Source: an uncultured Bacteroidales bacterium
GTDB taxonomy: Bacteria; Bacteroidota; Bacteroidia; Bacteroidales; Paludibacteraceae
Direction of reading: 5' to 3'
Assembly (NCBI GenBank): GCA_900317745.1
Contig: ONHW01000012.1
Span: 1 to 64,000, forward strand
Length of the DNA: 64,000 bases
Positions 4,832 to 49,636 of the stretch are shown here, piece by piece. The translations under genes and the position numbers were made by a program. The notes below the pieces were generated by a model that saw only the letters and a program-made list of their open reading frames with translations, was not told where the DNA came from and did no database searches. Each line of letters begins with the position of its first letter. The stretch's first letter is position 1.

Positions 4832-5872
4832 ATGAACATAACTGAACGTATATCCGGCTTACTGAGCCAAATCGAATGTATGAGTGCCGCCAATGCCGAA
4901 GAACTGGAGGCATTGCGCATCAAGTATCTGAGCAAGAAAGGCGAGATAGCCTCGCTGTTCTCCGAGTTCCGCGACGTACCCAACGAGCAGAAAAAGGAGT
5001 TAGGCGCCCAGCTCAACGCCCTGAAGGACAAAGCTACCGAGCGCATGAACGCCCTGCGCGAGCAGTTTGAGCAGGCTGCACAGTTGCAGGACAAACCCGA
5101 CCTGACGCGTACACCCGACCCTATCGCATTGGGTACACGTCACCCGCTGTCACTTGTGCGCGAGGAGATAATCGACGTATTCTCACGCATCGGATTCGTG
5201 GTGGCTGACGGACCGGAAGTAGAGGACGACCGCCACGTATTCGGCATGCTCAACTTTGCCCCCGAACATCCGGCACGCGACATGCAGGACACATTCTTTA
5301 TCGAGAAAGAACCCGGCATACAGAAGCCTACCGACATCTTGCTCCGCACGCATACGTCGAGCATTCAGACGCGCGTCATGACCCAGCAGAAACCGCCTAT
5401 CCGCGTGCTTTGCCCGGGTCGCGTATATCGCAACGAGGCGATCAGCGCACGCGCACACTGCTTCTTCCACCAGATAGAAGGTCTGTACATCGACAAGAAC
5501 GTCAGTTTTGCCGACCTACGCGAGGTGCTGCTGTATCTGGCGAAAGAACTTTTCGGACCGGAAACGAAGATTCGTCTGCGTCCGTCGTATTTCCCCTTCA
5601 CCGAACCCAGCGCAGAGATGGATATATCATGTAACATCTGCGGCGGTACGGGTTGCAGTTTCTGCAAAGGTACAGGCTGGGTGGAGATCCTCGGCTGCGG
5701 CATGGTTGACCCAAACGTACTGGAGAGCTGCGGCATTGACTCGAAGGTATATAGCGGTTACGCCTTCGGTATGGGTGTGGAGCGCATCACGAACCTCAAG
5801 TACAGAGTGAAGGATCTGCGTCTGTTCTCGGAGAATGATGTTCGTTTCCTCCGCCAGTTTGAGTCGTGCTAA
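4832..5872 (+). CDS. pheS: Phenylalanine--tRNA ligase alpha subunit
   Basis: Charges tRNA-Phe together with the beta subunit (PheT, not in this window). The 346-residue length is normal. The N-terminal coiled-coil domain (about 1-85) binds tRNA. The class II catalytic core follows: HPLSLVREEIIDVFSRIGF, motif 2 PIRVLCPGRVYRNEAI, FFHQIEGLYID, RPSYFPFTEPSAEMDI and motif 3 YAFGMGVERITNLKY. The pair of CxxCxGxGCxxC-like cysteines (CNICGGTGCSFCKGTGW) is typical of the family in this phylum. It has its own promoter. The three-copy hairpin element begins on the last base of its stop codon. Confidence 0.97.
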   Translation: MNITERISGLLSQIECMSAANAEELEALRIKYLSKKGEIASLFSEFRDVPNEQKKELGAQLNALKDKATERMNALREQFEQAAQLQDKPDLTRTPDPIALGTRHPLSLVREEIIDVFSRIGFVVADGPEVEDDRHVFGMLNFAPEHPARDMQDTFFIEKEPGIQKPTDILLRTHTSSIQTRVMTQQKPPIRVLCPGRVYRNEAISARAHCFFHQIEGLYIDKNVSFADLREVLLYLAKELFGPETKIRLRPSYFPFTEPSAEMDISCNICGGTGCSFCKGTGWVEILGCGMVDPNVLESCGIDSKVYSGYAFGMGVERITNLKYRVKDLRLFSENDVRFLRQFESC

Positions 5873-5975
5873 TTTTGGCTTTTATGGACATCTTTGCGCT
5901 TTTGTTTCGGTCATTATGTCCCAACATAACTCCCTCAACAGAAAAGCCCAAATCTGCCTCATAAAATTCCAAAAT
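5872..5975 (+). repeat. Three-copy nested-hairpin element, copy 1 (pheS/lpdA)
   Basis: A 104 nt unit related to those at 39908-40008 and 48603-48705. The outer stem is ATTTTGG-c-TTTTATG (5872-5886) with CATAAAA-tt-CCAAAAT (5960-5975). The middle stem is TTTG-c-GCTTTT with AAAAGC-c-CAAA. The apical stem is TTATGT (5914-5919) with ACATAA (5924-5929). A conserved TTCGGTCA precedes the apical stem and an ACTCC follows it. All three copies start at or right after a stop codon and point in the direction of the flanking genes. Confidence 0.8.
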
Positions 5976-5993
5976 CCCTATTAAGAATACGAC

Positions 5994-7418
5994 ATGAGAT
6001 ACTTTTTAGCAATCATAGGTGGCGGTCCTGCCGGATACACGGCAGCCGAACTCGCATCCAAAGCCGGCAAGGATGTTATCCTGTTTGAGCAAACTGCTCT
6101 CGGCGGCACATGCCTGAACATAGGTTGCATACCTACCAAATCGCTCCTGTACGGCGCCAAGCAGTTTTACAACGCCACGCACGCGCAGAAGTACGGCGTG
6201 ACTGCCGGCAGTGTGACCTTTGACTTCGCAGCCATGCAGAAGCGCAAGATCATCGTTGTGCGCAAACTGGTGGCAGGCATTCGTCAGCGCCTGAACAACG
6301 AGCATTGCACGATGGTCAACGGCGCAGCCGCTGTGCTCAGCCGCACGGACGAACAAGTGACAGTCTCCTGCAACGGTGAGACCTACGAGGCGGAGAACCT
6401 GATGATCTGCACCGGCTCAACGAACTTCGTGCCGCCCATCCCCGGCATACAGGACAATCCTGCCATCTGGGACAGCACCGATGCACTCGCTGCCACAGAA
6501 CTGCCCGCATCCGTTATCATCGTAGGCGGCGGAGTGATAGGCATGGAGTTTGCCACGCTCTACCATGAACTTGGCGTATCTGTCACCGTGATCGAAGCTA
6601 TGCCGACTATCCTGCCTAACCTGGATCAGGAGGTTGTGCAGATCCTGCTCGACAAGTACCGCAAAGCCGGTATCAACATTCTTACTTCCACCAAAGTTGA
6701 GGCAATAGAAGGGAATACAGTAAAACTCTCAACGAATGAACTTCCCTCAACGCTAAACTCTCAACACTCAACTTTATCTGCCGACAAGATCCTCGTTTCC
6801 GTCGGTCGCCGCGCCAACCTAAAGGGGCTGGAGGCACTCACGGATATCGAACTTAACCGCGGTGCTATCGTGGTGGACGATTTCATGAAGACGAACCTGC
6901 CGAACGTGTATGCCTGCGGCGATGTGACCGGCAAGGTTATGCTCGCTCACGTAGCCTCGCGTCAGGCGGAAGTGGCTGTAGGCCGCATGCTCAAGCAGAT
7001 TCCGCTGCAACGTATCGCTTACAACGCTATCCCTTCGGTCGTTTATACGAATCCCGAGATTGCTTCCGTGGGACTGACCGAACAGCAGGTACGTGATTTC
7101 TACACCGAGATGGAAGGCGAAGCAGGCATTGCCAAAGCCGGAGGTATAGAAGCGTTCTACGAAGTAAAGAAACTGCCGATGACTTTCTCCGGACGATTCA
7201 TGGCGGAGAACGACGGCGAGACCGGATTATGCAAACTCCTTGTGGACAAACGCAACAAGACCGTACTGGGCGCACACCTGATCGGTAATCCTGCATCGGA
7301 ATTCATCGCAGCTGCCTCGTTTGCGGTGCGCATGGGTTACACTGTAGCGGAGATGCAACAAGTGGTATTCCCCCACCCGACGGTCTCGGAGATACTGCAT
7401 GAGACGCTGAATGGTTAG
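5994..7418 (+). CDS. lpdA: Dihydrolipoyl dehydrogenase (E3)
   Basis: Reoxidises the lipoyl arms of 2-oxo acid dehydrogenases or the glycine cleavage system with NAD. FAD-binding GGGPAGYTAAELA is at residues 8-20, and the redox disulfide GGTCLNIGCIPTKS is at about 40-53. The NAD-binding VGGGVIGMEFATL is at about 177, followed by the second FAD motif NVYACGDVTG and the C-terminal interface HPTVSEILHE with the catalytic His-Glu pair. Length 474 is slightly long. The excess includes residues about 245-261, a stretch encoded by CTCAAC-type low-complexity repeats (6726-6776) that looks like an in-frame repeat expansion in a loop before ADKILVSVGRR. It follows the hairpin element after pheS. Confidence 0.95.
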   Translation: MRYFLAIIGGGPAGYTAAELASKAGKDVILFEQTALGGTCLNIGCIPTKSLLYGAKQFYNATHAQKYGVTAGSVTFDFAAMQKRKIIVVRKLVAGIRQRLNNEHCTMVNGAAAVLSRTDEQVTVSCNGETYEAENLMICTGSTNFVPPIPGIQDNPAIWDSTDALAATELPASVIIVGGGVIGMEFATLYHELGVSVTVIEAMPTILPNLDQEVVQILLDKYRKAGINILTSTKVEAIEGNTVKLSTNELPSTLNSQHSTLSADKILVSVGRRANLKGLEALTDIELNRGAIVVDDFMKTNLPNVYACGDVTGKVMLAHVASRQAEVAVGRMLKQIPLQRIAYNAIPSVVYTNPEIASVGLTEQQVRDFYTEMEGEAGIAKAGGIEAFYEVKKLPMTFSGRFMAENDGETGLCKLLVDKRNKTVLGAHLIGNPASEFIAAASFAVRMGYTVAEMQQVVFPHPTVSEILHETLNG

Positions 7419-38168: not shown

Positions 38169-39058
38169 GCAAACAAAAAATACAAGGATTAGGCACGGCG
38201 CTGGTGACGCCATTCACGGAAACAGGAAAAGTGGATGAGGCGGCATTACACAGACTGTTAGACAGGCAGCTTGCGGCAAAGGTGGATTTTCTGGTGGTGC
38301 TGGGTACAACGGGCGAGGCGGCCACCATGACGGCACGCGAGCAGGCGTTCGTCAGGAAGACGATTGTGGAACATGTTGCCGGCAGAGTGCCGCTGGTGCT
38401 TGGCGTAGGCGGCAACTGCACACAGGAAGTGGTTGAGCGGTTGGGACTGCTGAGCACTGAACTGAAACGCGACTATGCGGCTATACTGAGCGTGTGCCCA
38501 TACTACAACAAGCCTCAGCAAGAAGGGTTATACAGGCACTTTGCAGCGATAGCAGAAGCGTCGGCTGTGCCGGTCGTACTATATAATGTGCCCGGTCGTA
38601 CAGGAGTGGACATGCTGCCTGAGACGGTATTCCGATTGGCGGCAAGTTATCCGAACAAGATCATTGGCGTAAAAGAGGCGTCCGGCAAGCTAGAACAGAT
38701 AGAGACCATCATCCGCGGCACGAGAGGCAGTGAGTTTGTGGTGTTGTCGGGTGATGACGGATTAGCAGCACCGCTGATGCTAAATGGTGCACAAGGACTG
38801 ATATCCGTGCTGTCAAACGCCCTGCCGGAAGATACGATGCGGCTGGTTCACCAACCGACATTGGAGCAGCAGGCGGCTTTGGATGAACTGATCAAAGCAC
38901 TGTTTGCCGAAGGTAATCCGACAGGGATAAAAGGTTTGCTATCGATACAAGGTGTGACGAGCGATCATGTGCGCTTGCCACTGGTGGCGGCAAGTGCAGG
39001 GTTGAAGAGTGATTTACGAAAATTATTGGACAATTATGAAAATAGCACTATTCGGTAA
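38165..39058 (+). CDS. dapA: 4-hydroxy-tetrahydrodipicolinate synthase
   Basis: Condenses aspartate semialdehyde with pyruvate in lysine and diaminopimelate synthesis. 297 residues, TIM barrel. LGTALVTPFTETGKVDE, LVVLGTTGEAATMTARE (pyruvate-binding TT) and PYYNKPQQEGLYRHF (Tyr) are present, with VLYNVPGRTGVDMLPE, the Schiff-base lysine in IIGVKEASGKLEQ, and LSGDDGLAAPLMLNGAQGLISVLSN. It overlaps the DUF6913 gene by 4 bp and the start of nadK by 23 bp. Confidence 0.96.
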   Translation: MSKQKIQGLGTALVTPFTETGKVDEAALHRLLDRQLAAKVDFLVVLGTTGEAATMTAREQAFVRKTIVEHVAGRVPLVLGVGGNCTQEVVERLGLLSTELKRDYAAILSVCPYYNKPQQEGLYRHFAAIAEASAVPVVLYNVPGRTGVDMLPETVFRLAASYPNKIIGVKEASGKLEQIETIIRGTRGSEFVVLSGDDGLAAPLMLNGAQGLISVLSNALPEDTMRLVHQPTLEQQAALDELIKALFAEGNPTGIKGLLSIQGVTSDHVRLPLVAASAGLKSDLRKLLDNYENSTIR

Positions 39059-39905
39059 CGCGATGAAGCGTATGACACTTGGCGAGGTGTCCCATGTGCT
39101 GGAGTTTATGGAGTTGCGTCAAGTGGAGGTTTATCTGTCGCAAGAACTGCGTCAGGAGATGAACCTGCGCGATTATCCTCCGTTCCCTGCCGAAGAGAAA
39201 GCCTGGAAAGAGTTTACGGACGAAGGGAATATGATTGATTTTGCGTTGTCCATCGGCGGCGACGGCACGTTTCTGACCACCGCATCGATTATCGGTGACA
39301 AGAACATACCTATCGTAGGCATCAACTGCGGTCATTTGGGTTTTCTGGCAGAGGTTCAGACAAATCAGGTGGATCTGATCATGGATCAGTTGATACAAGG
39401 CCGTTACACGATAGAACAACGCTCGCTACTGACCGTTGACGGCAAGGGCGGTCACTTGTCTTCACCGTTCGCGCTGAACGAGATAGCAGTGATGAAATCG
39501 GGTTTGTCGTCGATGATAGAGATTGATGCGTTCATGAACGGCGAGTTGCTGCATACATACGAGGCAGACGGTTTGGTCATATCTACTCCGACAGGCTCAA
39601 CAGCCTACAACCTGAGTGTCGGAGGCCCGCTGATGGAGCCGCACGTAAAGGCAATCATCCTGTCGCCAATCGCTACACACCGGTTGTCAGTTCGTCCGCT
39701 GGTTATACCCGATGATTGGACTATAGACCTGAAAGTCAGAAGCCGCAACGGCAACTACCTGATATCGGTGGACGGCAGAAGCCAGTCGCTACTGAACGAA
39801 GTGGAGTTGCATATAGCCAAAGCGCCTTACACGACGAAGGTGGTGCAGCTGGAGGAGCACTCGTTTATACAGGCGCTGAAGGACAAACTCCAATGGGGGA
39901 AATAG
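39036..39905 (+). CDS. nadK: NAD kinase
   Basis: Phosphorylates NAD to NADP. The start at 39036 (MKIALFGNAMKRMT) is chosen over the earlier ATG at 39009 because the family begins with this strand. The 289-residue length fits. Motifs: the GGDGTFL nucleotide-binding block (SIGGDGTFLTTASI), GINCGHLGFLAEV, LNEIAVMKSG, EADGLVISTPTGSTAYNLSVGGPLMEP and LSPIATHRLSVRPLV. The gene overlaps dapA and is followed at once by the second copy of the three-copy hairpin element. Confidence 0.96.
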   Translation: MKIALFGNAMKRMTLGEVSHVLEFMELRQVEVYLSQELRQEMNLRDYPPFPAEEKAWKEFTDEGNMIDFALSIGGDGTFLTTASIIGDKNIPIVGINCGHLGFLAEVQTNQVDLIMDQLIQGRYTIEQRSLLTVDGKGGHLSSPFALNEIAVMKSGLSSMIEIDAFMNGELLHTYEADGLVISTPTGSTAYNLSVGGPLMEPHVKAIILSPIATHRLSVRPLVIPDDWTIDLKVRSRNGNYLISVDGRSQSLLNEVELHIAKAPYTTKVVQLEEHSFIQALKDKLQWGK

Positions 39906-39907
39906 GA

Positions 39908-40008
39908 GTTTTGGTTTTTCTTGGTGCTTTTGAATTTTTGGTTCGGTCATTATGCCCGCATAACTCCATTACCAGAAAATCCCAAACCCCTCAAGAAAAT
40001 TCCAAAAC
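39908..40008 (+). repeat. Three-copy nested-hairpin element, copy 2 (nadK/fmt)
   Basis: 101 nt. The outer stem is GTTTTGG-t-TTTTCTTG (39908-39923) with CAAGAAAA-tt-CCAAAAC (39992-40008). The middle stem is TTTG-a-ATTTT with AAAAT-cc-CAAA. The apical stem is TTATGC (39950-39955) with GCATAA (39958-39963). The copy begins 3 bp after the nadK stop. Several stem positions differ from the other copies on both sides at once. Confidence 0.8.
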
Positions 40009-40043
40009 AAAGAGACAAAACACAATTTTGAAAAAAATAATCT

Positions 40044-40940
40044 ATGAGAATAATCTACATGGGAACGCCGGAGTTTGCGGTAGCGCCGCTGAAAGCTCTG
40101 GTAGAAGGCGGATACAATATTGTGGCAGTGGTTACAATGCCTGACAAACCGGCAGGTCGCGGACATCATGTGCAATATTCGGCAGTGAAGGAATATGCAC
40201 TTTCCGTTGGTTTGCCGGTGCTGCAGCCGGAGAAGTTGAAAGACGAGACGTTTATTGAAGAGTTAAGGAGTTACAATGCAGACTTGCAGATTGTAGTAGC
40301 ATTCAGGATGCTGCCGGAAGTTGTTTGGGCTATGCCGCGTTTGGGTACGTTTAACCTGCACGCCTCGCTTCTGCCGCAATACCGCGGTGCTGCGCCCATC
40401 AACTGGGCAGTGATCAACGGAGACAAAGAGACAGGCGTTACGACCTTTATGCTCAAGCATGAGATTGATACAGGAAACATCATACTGCAAGAGCGAATGC
40501 CGATTGGCGAAGATGAAAATGTAGGTTCGGTGCACGACAGACTAATGGAGTTAGGTACAGAACTTGTGCTGAAAACAGTGGATCTGGTTGACGAATCCGA
40601 TACGAACGGAACGCCTCTGCCTACAACGCCTCAGGACGAGATAGCATCCGAAGATTTGCGTCCGGCTCCGAAGATATTCAAGGAGACGTGTGAGATTGAC
40701 ACCACAAAGACCGTAGCCGAGGTACATAACTTCGTTCGGGGTTTATCGCCCTACCCTGCCGCATGGTGCAACCTGACCATTGGCGGCACAACCTACGAGA
40801 ATGTGAAAGTGTTCGCTACGGAAAAAGGTCACGGGCCGATTAGTTTGCAATGTGCTGACGGCGAAATTAGCCTCATGGAGTTGCAGTTGCCGGGGAAGAA
40901 GAGGATGGCGGCGAAAGCCCTGCTGAACGGGTTGAGGTAG
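40044..40940 (+). CDS. fmt: Methionyl-tRNA formyltransferase
   Basis: Formylates initiator Met-tRNA with 10-formyltetrahydrofolate. 298 residues. MRIIYMGTPEFAVAPLKAL opens the Rossmann domain; VTMPDKPAGRGHHVQ, the catalytic block FNLHASLLPQYRGAAPINWAVINGD (Asn-His and the HASLLP motif), TGNIILQERM and the C-terminal domain RGLSPYPAAWCNL follow. It is separated from nadK by the hairpin element and about 35 bp. Confidence 0.96.
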   Translation: MRIIYMGTPEFAVAPLKALVEGGYNIVAVVTMPDKPAGRGHHVQYSAVKEYALSVGLPVLQPEKLKDETFIEELRSYNADLQIVVAFRMLPEVVWAMPRLGTFNLHASLLPQYRGAAPINWAVINGDKETGVTTFMLKHEIDTGNIILQERMPIGEDENVGSVHDRLMELGTELVLKTVDLVDESDTNGTPLPTTPQDEIASEDLRPAPKIFKETCEIDTTKTVAEVHNFVRGLSPYPAAWCNLTIGGTTYENVKVFATEKGHGPISLQCADGEISLMELQLPGKKRMAAKALLNGLR

Positions 40941-47603: not shown

Positions 47604-48599
47604 ATGACTAACACTGTTGACATTCGCGAGTTGCAAGAGCGCATAGAGCGCGAGAGCTCGTTTGTGGACGCCCTGACAATGGGCATGAATCAAGTTATCG
47701 TAGGTCAAAAGCACTTGGTAGAGAGCCTGCTGATCGGTTTGTTGTCTGACGGACACATTTTGCTGGAAGGTGTGCCGGGCCTCGCAAAGACTCTTGCTAT
47801 CCGCACATTGGCTGACCTTATCAAAGCCAATTTCAGTCGTATTCAGTTTACCCCGGACTTGCTGCCTGCCGATGTGATCGGTACGCAGATCTATTCGCAG
47901 AAGTCCGAGGAGTTCAGCATCAAGCGCGGTCCTATCTTCGCCAACTTCGTATTGGCAGACGAGATCAACCGTGCTCCGGCAAAAGTTCAGTCGGCACTTC
48001 TGGAAGCAATGCAAGAGCGCCAGATAACTATTGGTGACAAGACATTCAAACTGGACGAACCGTTCCTGGTTCTCGCCACGCAGAACCCTATTGAGCAGGA
48101 AGGTACTTATCCTCTGCCCGAGGCACAGACCGACCGATTCATGCTGAAAGTGGTAATCGGTTATCCGCAACCCGAAGAGGAACGTCAGATCATCCGTCAG
48201 AACATCACCGGCGAGAAGAAAATGATCACTCCTATCCTATCCACCGAAGACATCAAGAAAGCCCGCGAAGTAGTGCGCCAGGTATATTTGGACGAAAAGA
48301 TTGAGCGCTACATCGTGGATATCGTGTTTGCCACACGTCAACCGGAGAAATATGGTTTGGACAACCTGAAGCAGATGATTGCCTTCGGCGGTAGTCCGCG
48401 TGCAAGTATCAACCTCGCACTCGCTGCCCGTGCTTACGCGTTCATCCATCGCAGAGGCTACGTTATCCCCGAAGATGTACGCGCCGTATGCTACGACGTA
48501 CTGCGTCACCGTATCGGTTTGACTTATGAGGCTGAGGCCAACAACATGACAACCGAGGATGTGATTACCGAGGTATTGAACGCAGTTCAAGTTCCTTAA
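47604..48599 (+). CDS. MoxR-family AAA ATPase
   Basis: 331 residues. Walker A is LLEGVPGLAKTLAI (about residue 54), Walker B FVLADEINRAPAKVQSALLEAM, and LVLATQNPIEQEGTYPLPEAQTDRFML carries sensor and arginine regions. The C-terminal lid shows IAFGGSPRASINLALAARAYAF. MoxR ATPases act as chaperones for von Willebrand factor proteins encoded nearby, and here it is the first gene of the Bat operon. The gap to the DUF58 gene holds the third copy of the hairpin element. Confidence 0.95.
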   Translation: MTNTVDIRELQERIERESSFVDALTMGMNQVIVGQKHLVESLLIGLLSDGHILLEGVPGLAKTLAIRTLADLIKANFSRIQFTPDLLPADVIGTQIYSQKSEEFSIKRGPIFANFVLADEINRAPAKVQSALLEAMQERQITIGDKTFKLDEPFLVLATQNPIEQEGTYPLPEAQTDRFMLKVVIGYPQPEEERQIIRQNITGEKKMITPILSTEDIKKAREVVRQVYLDEKIERYIVDIVFATRQPEKYGLDNLKQMIAFGGSPRASINLALAARAYAFIHRRGYVIPEDVRAVCYDVLRHRIGLTYEAEANNMTTEDVITEVLNAVQVP

Positions 48600-48602
48600 T
48601 TT

Positions 48603-48705
48603 GTTTTGCTTTTTCTTGGCATCTTTGGCTTTTTTGTTCGGTCACTATGGTCACCATAGCTCCCTCACAAGAAAAAACCAAATCTGCTCAATAAAAATTC
48701 AAAAC
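48603..48705 (+). repeat. Three-copy nested-hairpin element, copy 3 (moxR/DUF58)
   Basis: 103 nt. The outer stem is GTTTTG-c-TTTTTCTTG (48603-48618) with CAATAAAAA-tt-CAAAAC (48689-48705), one mismatch. The middle stem is TTTGG-c-TTTTTT with AAAAAACCAAA. The apical stem is CTATGG (48645-48650) with CCATAG (48654-48659). It starts 4 bp after the moxR stop. Confidence 0.8.
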
Positions 48706-48733
48706 AAGAAACACTTATTAGTCGATCACTCAA

Positions 48734-49636
48734 ATGACTAGTGAAGAGTTAATAAAGAAAGTCCGGAAGATAGAGATCAAGACCCGAGCTCTGTCGCACA
48801 ATATCTTTGCAGGCGAGTACCACAGCCAGTTCAAGGGCCGCGGTATGGCGTTCAGCGAGGTGCGCGAGTACCAGCCCGGTGATGATGTACGTTCCATCGA
48901 CTGGAATGTGACCGCCCGCATGGGTAAGCCATATATCAAGGTGTTTGAGGAGGAACGCGAACTGACAGTAATGCTGCTCGTTGACGTATCCGGCAGCCGC
49001 AATTTCGGAACAATGTCGCAGTACAAGCGCGACACGATAGCCGAGGTCGCTGCCACGCTTGCATTCTCAACCATCGAGAACAACGACAAAGTCGGTTGTA
49101 TCTTCTTCTCGGACAAGATTGAGAAAGTCATCCCGGTCAAGAAAGGCAAGAGTCATGTGCTGCATATCATCCGCGAGCTATTGGACTTCGAGCCGACATC
49201 AAAGGGCACGGATGTGGCATCGGCAGTCCAGTTCTTCGCCAATGCACAAAAACGCCATGCCACATGCTTCCTCATCTCTGATCTTGTCGGCGTAGGCGGA
49301 CAACTTATCAGCGAAGGCAAAAAGAAAGGCCGTTTGACGATTGAACAACCCTTGATGATTGCCTCCTCGAAGCACGACATGAACGTCATTCAGGTCTATG
49401 ACCGTCGCGATGCCGAACTGCCGGATATAGGTCTGCTGAAGCTCAACGATGCCGAAACAGGCGAACGTCTGTGGGTGAACACCTCGCGCGAAGATGTCCG
49501 CAAGGCATACAGCGATGCTTGGACCAGGCAACAGGCGGCTATTCAGGATGTGTTTGTCCGCACCGGCGTGAATGCTGTTTCGATGCAGACTGACCAGGAT
49601 TACGTGCGCGCGCTCATGCGGTTGTTTAAGATGTAA
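48734..49636 (+). CDS. DUF58 domain protein of the Bat operon
   Basis: 300 residues. The family block FAGEYHSQFKGRGMAFSEVREYQPGDDVRSIDWNVTARMGKPYIK is present in parts near the N terminus, and a vWA-like fold follows with LLVDVSGSRNFGTM (MIDAS DxSxS-like), DKVGCIFFSDKIEKVIPVKKG, STSKGTDVASAVQF-like and CFLISDLVG. DUF58 proteins accompany MoxR ATPases in many phyla. It is probably a cytoplasmic client of the MoxR ATPase upstream. Confidence 0.94.
   Translation: MTSEELIKKVRKIEIKTRALSHNIFAGEYHSQFKGRGMAFSEVREYQPGDDVRSIDWNVTARMGKPYIKVFEEERELTVMLLVDVSGSRNFGTMSQYKRDTIAEVAATLAFSTIENNDKVGCIFFSDKIEKVIPVKKGKSHVLHIIRELLDFEPTSKGTDVASAVQFFANAQKRHATCFLISDLVGVGGQLISEGKKKGRLTIEQPLMIASSKHDMNVIQVYDRRDAELPDIGLLKLNDAETGERLWVNTSREDVRKAYSDAWTRQQAAIQDVFVRTGVNAVSMQTDQDYVRALMRLFKM

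Follow-up and report, generated by a model that had tools for sequence, protein, structure and literature searches.

The three nested hairpins in the window (the whole stretch of 64,000 nt that was analysed, from an uncultured Bacteroidales bacterium) belong to a multi-copy family which has apparently been undescribed until now. On balance we consider it probable that the family is one of palindromic, non-autonomous DNA elements, a Bacteroidales fold-back family whose members are kept as post-stop spacers in operons. The evidence comes from the placement of the copies in the genus, from relatives with terminal repeats outside the genus, and from the type of change that is seen in the covarying arms.

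Hairpin copies in the window

The three copies, which are all on the + strand, share the plan of a single long imperfect palindrome with nested stems and an asymmetric conserved apex composed of TTCGGTCA, a stem-loop and CTCC (Table 1). The original prediction had described this three-copy element together with paired changes in its stems, and both are found in the alignment as claimed, including T-A, C-G and G-C at position 6 and T-A, T-A and C-G at position 1 of the apical stem, the changes in the outer stem (TTTTATG/CATAAAA) and the change of the middle stem from GCTTTT/AAAAGC to ATTTT/AAAAT. It had also placed the copies no more than 4 nt from the stop codons of pheS, the NAD kinase gene and the gene of the MoxR-type AAA ATPase, at the junctions pheS/lpdA-type, nadK/fmt and moxR/DUF58, which is borne out by open reading frames and Pfam. 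The sequence of copy 3 is present in identical form in genome G163.

Table 1. Positions in the window of the hairpin copies, of their apical modules and of the adjoining genes.
Feature	Position	Strand	Remarks
Nested-hairpin copy 1	5871..5977	+	pheS/lpdA junction; covariance model 102.9 bits, E 3.1e-25
Nested-hairpin copy 2	39907..40010	+	NAD kinase/fmt junction; covariance model 103.1 bits, E 2.8e-25
Nested-hairpin copy 3	48602..48707	+	moxR/DUF58 junction; covariance model 116.5 bits, E 3.8e-29
Apical module of copy 1, conserved (TTCGGTCA, stem-loop, CTCC)	5906..5933	+	
Apical module of copy 2	39942..39967	+	
Apical module of copy 3	48637..48663	+	
pheS; stop codon adjoins copy 1	4832..5872	+	ORF and Pfam
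Dihydrolipoyl dehydrogenase-type gene, 3' of copy 1	5994..7418	+	ORF and Pfam
NAD kinase gene; stop 1 nt ahead of copy 2	39009..39905	+	ORF and Pfam
Methionyl-tRNA formyltransferase-type gene (fmt), 3' of copy 2	40044..40940	+	ORF and Pfam
MoxR-type AAA ATPase gene; stop 2 nt ahead of copy 3	47604..48599	+	ORF and Pfam
DUF58 gene, 3' of copy 3	48734..49636	+	ORF and Pfam

RNA folding against dinucleotide shuffles gave z-scores of -4.5, -2.8 and -5.7 for copies 1, 2 and 3, with 0, 1 and 0 of 200 shuffles, respectively, folding as well as the copy. In the three copies the 5' arm is composed of 53-64% T and the 3' arm of 44-61% A. The element had been proposed not to belong to a named family, and the comparison of the whole window with Rfam agrees with this, no family being matched at the gathering score; in permissive mode the three copies yielded only sub-threshold microRNA/lncRNA matches (best E 0.014). 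No intrinsic terminator-like site, that is a GC stem followed by a U run, was found at the three junctions. A promoter-like CATCTTTG box was set aside, its spacing being unlike that of the Bacteroidetes promoter.

Size and distribution of the family

Searches of the genome of origin and of related Bacteroidales, as had been proposed with the original prediction, were run with a covariance model built from five copies (alignment A2, model R1). The genome of origin (G000, 2.6 Mb) contains 12 distinct loci at E <= 7e-14, a count that leaves out 8 rows in which these palindromes were matched again on the reverse strand, and one match at E=0.52. Counting this genome each time, the element was matched in 85 of 178 genomes of the genus, in 26 of 101 genomes of the family-level sample and in 13 of 393 genomes of the order sample, the last with matches in seven families besides its own. 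Copies from five other families (f19, f26, f74, f79 and f81) were looked at, and f59 and f60, the weakest family matches (E 4e-5 and 3e-6), are known as model matches alone. In the phylum sample of 395 genomes there were two matching genomes, both within the order, and no match beyond Bacteroidales. A distant-mode search of plasmids with two queries gave no match. In the literature no title or abstract start was found that describes this Bacteroidales hairpin family. The identity of element copies is 0.740 within genomes and 0.745 between genomes, and since copies of one genome are no more alike than those of different genomes, there is no sign of a recent burst in the genus.

Some variant copies were seen. 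The loci L022 (G000:C28:18205-18347) and L184:1132-1275 (G265) carry nearly the same extra hairpin of about 38 nt (ACTGACACCCC...TTTGGGGACCCCGAA) after the apical stem, and the match lengths at G163:C99:6881 and G175:C10:14188 resemble this longer variant, judging from length alone. L193:1071-1329 of G136 is composed of a full copy and two partial apical copies behind it (1180-1242 and 1273-1329). In L025 (G000:C19:119832-119935) the left arm has seemingly been swapped for another hairpin (AAAGCGGACAC TTCG GTGTCCGCTTT); G249 and G163 have the full left arm at what is apparently the same junction.

Free units behind stop codons in the genus

Among the copies looked at, those of the genus are units of about 104 bp without terminal repeats. 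Their placement was scored against ORFs of at least 60 codons in 89 copies from 30 genomes (12 from the genome of origin and 77 from the others), which are part of all matches. In 78 of these the 5' end falls between -9 and +8 nt relative to the stop of a sense ORF, and in 64 it is within 2 nt, as compared to 92 of 1478 control positions located at sense stops. Eight copies were scored as reversed, an antisense ORF ending at their 3' end, although one of them (L203:1066) also adjoins a sense stop and may be mis-scored; three copies are neither. Both orientations together, a stop codon is abutted by 86 of the 89. Within the genome of origin the copies C9:43882 and C20:114364 are reversed, and C12:7233 has no adjoining stop and is found just 5' of a gene that is read the other way. 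The claim that the element points with the genes is thus correct as a strong bias and not as a rule. No target duplication was recognised by eye in the genus copies, which leaves mobility of the genus unit itself only putative.

Miniature transposons outside the genus

Outside the genus the same core sits inside miniature transposons of about 195 bp, whose ends and target duplications differ by type. Both terminal repeats are present in 59 of 71 examined copies, a sample that includes 6 copies chosen for showing type A ends. Of the 59 copies with both repeats, 57 measure 187-200 bp in all, and the distance from the core to the outer end is 27-28 bp on the right (54 of 54) and 57-71 bp on the left (53 of 54). 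An exact duplication of 4 bp flanks 26 of 44 copies with type A ends (about GGTGANYTCTATAAAT), being TTAA in 14, and one of 5 bp flanks 13 of 15 copies with type B ends (CCCAAATCGGTCATTAGA), the control pairs giving 0 of 44 and 0 of 15, respectively. A third terminal repeat, GAAGTGATTTAAACTTT, is found in G506, a genome of another family, on near-identical copies of 190-195 bp; here no more than 5 of 13 rows show a 3-bp duplication, a count without a control set. As to placement, 7 of 54 terminal-repeat copies abut a stop codon in sense, 9 in antisense and 38 neither, and the orientation relative to co-directional neighbours is even (20 vs 15).

With type A ends there are also shorter and longer derivatives, from 43 to 343 bp, and G506 has derivatives of 32-57 bp with its terminal repeat. 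At the G506 loci L294-L303 GAAGTGATTTAAACTTT occurs alone or in intergenic remnants of 32-57 bp, apparently after deletion of the palindrome inside. In G059 the nested palindromes inside the 180-bp copies with type B ends are different ones, which are unmatched by the model. One core with differing ends, together with type B ends around other cores, indicates that core and ends are partly exchangeable. The loci L306-L315 (G059 and G077) have type B ends around other palindromic cores of 180 bp, with 5-bp flank repeats in several of them by eye.

The type A end pattern has 0 matches in G000, and type A and B ends with mismatches allowed have 0 matches in the window and in the 12 loci of the genome of origin; the whole-genome search of G000 for type B ends was partial, its pattern being one base short. 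Among 10 ORFs located next to type A or G506 ends none had a Pfam match to a transposase family, nor was a transposase found among the remaining ORFs beside the examined terminal repeats, as judged from the ORF starts. There is no pair of + to - type B ends 1-2.5 kb apart among the matches listed, and viral contigs gave no match to two terminal-repeat patterns.

Covariation of the arms

The original prediction took changes on both sides of the stems to imply selection for the folded form. In a set of 88 distinct sequences, one of which (L035) is from another genus, the covariation is genuine, with 92.6% paired cells vs 79.7 in shuffled sets and a covariation score of 0.314 vs 0.090 for shuffled columns and 0.05-0.08 for slid partners. 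The inference drawn from it is doubtful, because selection for an mRNA helix should yield mainly G-U among the one-sided changes and A-C is found in excess. On the tree of the 88 sequences a Watson-Crick pair changed 177 times to another Watson-Crick pair, 36 times to G-U, 67 times to A-C and 76 times to another mismatch; for the one-sided steps, read on the sense strand, the difference between G-U and A-C has a binomial p of 0.003 under a parsimony reconstruction which is crude for sequences this old and diverged. Counted as cells at pairs with a Watson-Crick mode, there are 41 G-U vs 86 A-C in the genus and 47 vs 48 outside it. The equality outside the genus rejects a preference for RNA pairing, and would not by itself prove template switching. 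An A-C excess on the sense strand is a G-T excess on the opposite one and, as a guess, would agree with folding of the bottom DNA strand.

Paired changes that are adjacent and fall on the same branch number 14 vs 5.5 expected (0 of 2000 shuffles), in a recount of 175 double changes. Such changes in adjacent blocks are what arm-to-arm template switching predicts, a process proposed as the origin of RNA stems and as the means of their upkeep (PMC8794818). The column entropy is 0.808 for unpaired and 0.645 for paired positions, unpaired ones being less conserved on average. The outer and middle stems differ between copies in a compensated way, the asymmetric apex hardly varies and the apical stem is fixed as well. 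Template switching on its own should erase the internal mismatches near the apex, but the GTCA/CT asymmetry has been conserved there, and some other cause must be sought for the apex. The covariation points to correction between the arms at the DNA level, or to a DNA hairpin, and not to selection for an mRNA helix.

The main rival reading is a role of the free form as a cis-acting RNA, in which the intercistronic hairpin protects the upstream 3' end or is cut by RNase III, sets the ratio of the gene products, and owes its covariation to selection for the RNA fold. We regard this as possible, with limited confidence. The strength of the covariation speaks for it, but the sense strand has no G-U preference, rather the reverse. 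A reading as an RNA processing or stability signal is kept alive by the sense orientation of the genus copies (78 in sense behind a stop vs 8 reversed, in contrast to the even orientation outside the genus) and by their persistence at the same junctions.

History at shared junctions

The same junctions recur across species of the genus. In 66 non-independent pairs of copies which share a junction, each with at least 40 four-fold sites, the identity is 0.83 for the element vs 0.49 for upstream four-fold sites and 0.745 for all element pairs. At the moxR junction the identity of the element drops as protein divergence grows (rho 0.58, 28 non-independent pairs). Both observations favour a cis-acting RNA, against which stands the patchy occurrence at moxR/DUF58, where the element is present in 8 of 35 genomes (the 30 nearest by MoxR and 5 picked for carrying the element) a pattern that takes 4 or more changes on the MoxR tree, and where some relatives manage with gaps of 3-6 nt. 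At the element-less moxR junctions the distance from the stop codon to the next ATGAC, found in 26 of 27, is 3 to 187 nt, and by eye this gap often consists of short tandem repeats. The 78:8 orientation bias and the identity at shared junctions taken together suggest a selected function beyond what the spacer reading supplies. Several element-less species in the set L213-L240 carry short tandem repeats behind the moxR stop, their sequences differing from each other.

As far as can be read from the sequences, some junction copies look exchanged and not inherited. G000 and G163 are identical at moxR over the element and the next 60 nt, and their upstream coding DNA is 0.80-0.90 identical; G249, the closest genome to G000 on the MoxR tree, is without the element at this junction.

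Another reading is that of a stop-codon-homing repeat, in which the unit lacking terminal repeats would be mobile in its own right and be placed in sense at gene ends by a machinery that reads it as a folded single strand. The analogy is with integron attC sites and IS200/IS605 hairpins, which are handled as folded strands. It could account for near-identical units at the same junction in different species with 3' spacers that cannot be aligned (identity 1.0 for L152/L153 and 0.98 for L155/L160, the offsets of the latter pair differing by about 4 nt by eye), for similar units at different junctions and in different species (0.94 between moxR in G000 and nadK in G105), and for compensated stems around a nearly fixed asymmetric apex. 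We hold it for decidedly improbable, as copies in the genus bear no trace of a recent burst, there is no enzyme candidate, and the fixed apical stem means that conservation is not limited to unpaired letters. Variable tips with a fixed centre are also the reverse of the attC pattern, and the resemblance to attC was set aside.

Comparison with known repeats

A REP/RAYT system, in which the palindrome is moved by a Y1 tyrosine transposase, is a very unlikely explanation. Like REP and REPIN sequences, the element is a small extragenic palindrome found mostly 3' of genes (PMC3733652). Y1_Tnp (PF01797) is above the cut-off in several carriers, both of the genus (G136, G231, G255 and G207) and outside it (G008, G014 and G036). 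It is absent at E <= 0.001, however, in the copy-rich genomes G265, G163, G138, G228 and G261, and also in G044, is only below the cut-off in G000, G105 and G249, and is carried by the element-less genomes G108 and G021. Across 20 Y1 loci there is one weak match to the element (18.9 bits, E 0.0095; L252 of G231), so that Y1 matches are in practice unflanked by it. The element is moreover nested and longer (104, not 20-40), and the 4- and 5-bp duplications of the relatives are unlike Y1 transposition. The suggestion of a REP-like mobile hairpin survives in kind, the relatives being miniature transposons with terminal repeats and target duplications; a link to Y1/RAYT finds no support. A reading as ordinary intrinsic terminators or chance palindromes, which would agree with hairpins located behind genes, is refuted by the existence of a multi-copy family with shared sequence and plan (E down to 4e-29) and by junctions without a terminator-like site.

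The closest likeness is to MITEs, the relatives outside the genus being short, multi-copy elements with terminal inverted repeats and 4- or 5-bp target duplications. The differences are that one internal core is common to elements with differing terminal repeats and duplication lengths, that the type B ends of G059 enclose cores unmatched by the model, and that the genus copies looked at have no terminal repeats. ERIC and Correia/NEMIS are palindromic intergenic repeats of about 100-150 bp which can be co-transcribed with their neighbours. The hairpin element resembles them in being a palindromic intergenic repeat of similar size, a likeness by description only (for Correia, PMC2649163). It differs in being found only in Bacteroidales among the sampled genomes and in having its start fixed at the stop codon. 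From Porphyromonas gingivalis, a Bacteroidales species, the BrickBuilt elements are a further case for comparison. They are likewise MITEs in intergenic DNA, but are reported to contain a minisatellite (PMC4596501, PMC5771137), and are likened here by description only.

Discussion

According to the preferred reading, that of a non-autonomous fold-back element kept as a spacer, the original elements would have been moved by transposases acting in trans. Copies inserted just behind a stop codon would survive, as the gene before them and the leader of the gene after them both stay intact. An A-rich leader is favourable for start codons in Bacteroidetes, and the sense orientation may be favoured in that it puts the A-rich arm, and not the T-rich one, ahead of the start codon that follows. 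When DNA is synthesised across the hairpin, the template would switch between the arms, copying mutations across and keeping the arms complementary, and selection for an mRNA helix is probably not the main driver of this complementarity. To judge from the gene tree, a single copy may persist at one junction through a divergence which saturates synonymous sites.

A bolder proposal, which we think improbable, is that of a hairpin module independent of any one transposon family, carried by miniature transposons that answer to two or more transposase specificities. In one large genus it would have become a free unit, homing as a folded DNA strand to sites right behind stop codons in sense, with arms rewritten blockwise by template switching.

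For the Bacteroidales the family means that one hairpin core is common to miniature transposons which differ in their ends and target duplications, and that in a large genus its free form is fixed at the stop codons of operons, where it should be annotated, and until there has been a test it should not be called an RNA motif. A functional RNA is usually proven by covariation, yet this hairpin family covaries strongly, fails the G-U test and changes in blocks. It is a natural test case for telling covariation by template switching from covariation by RNA selection.
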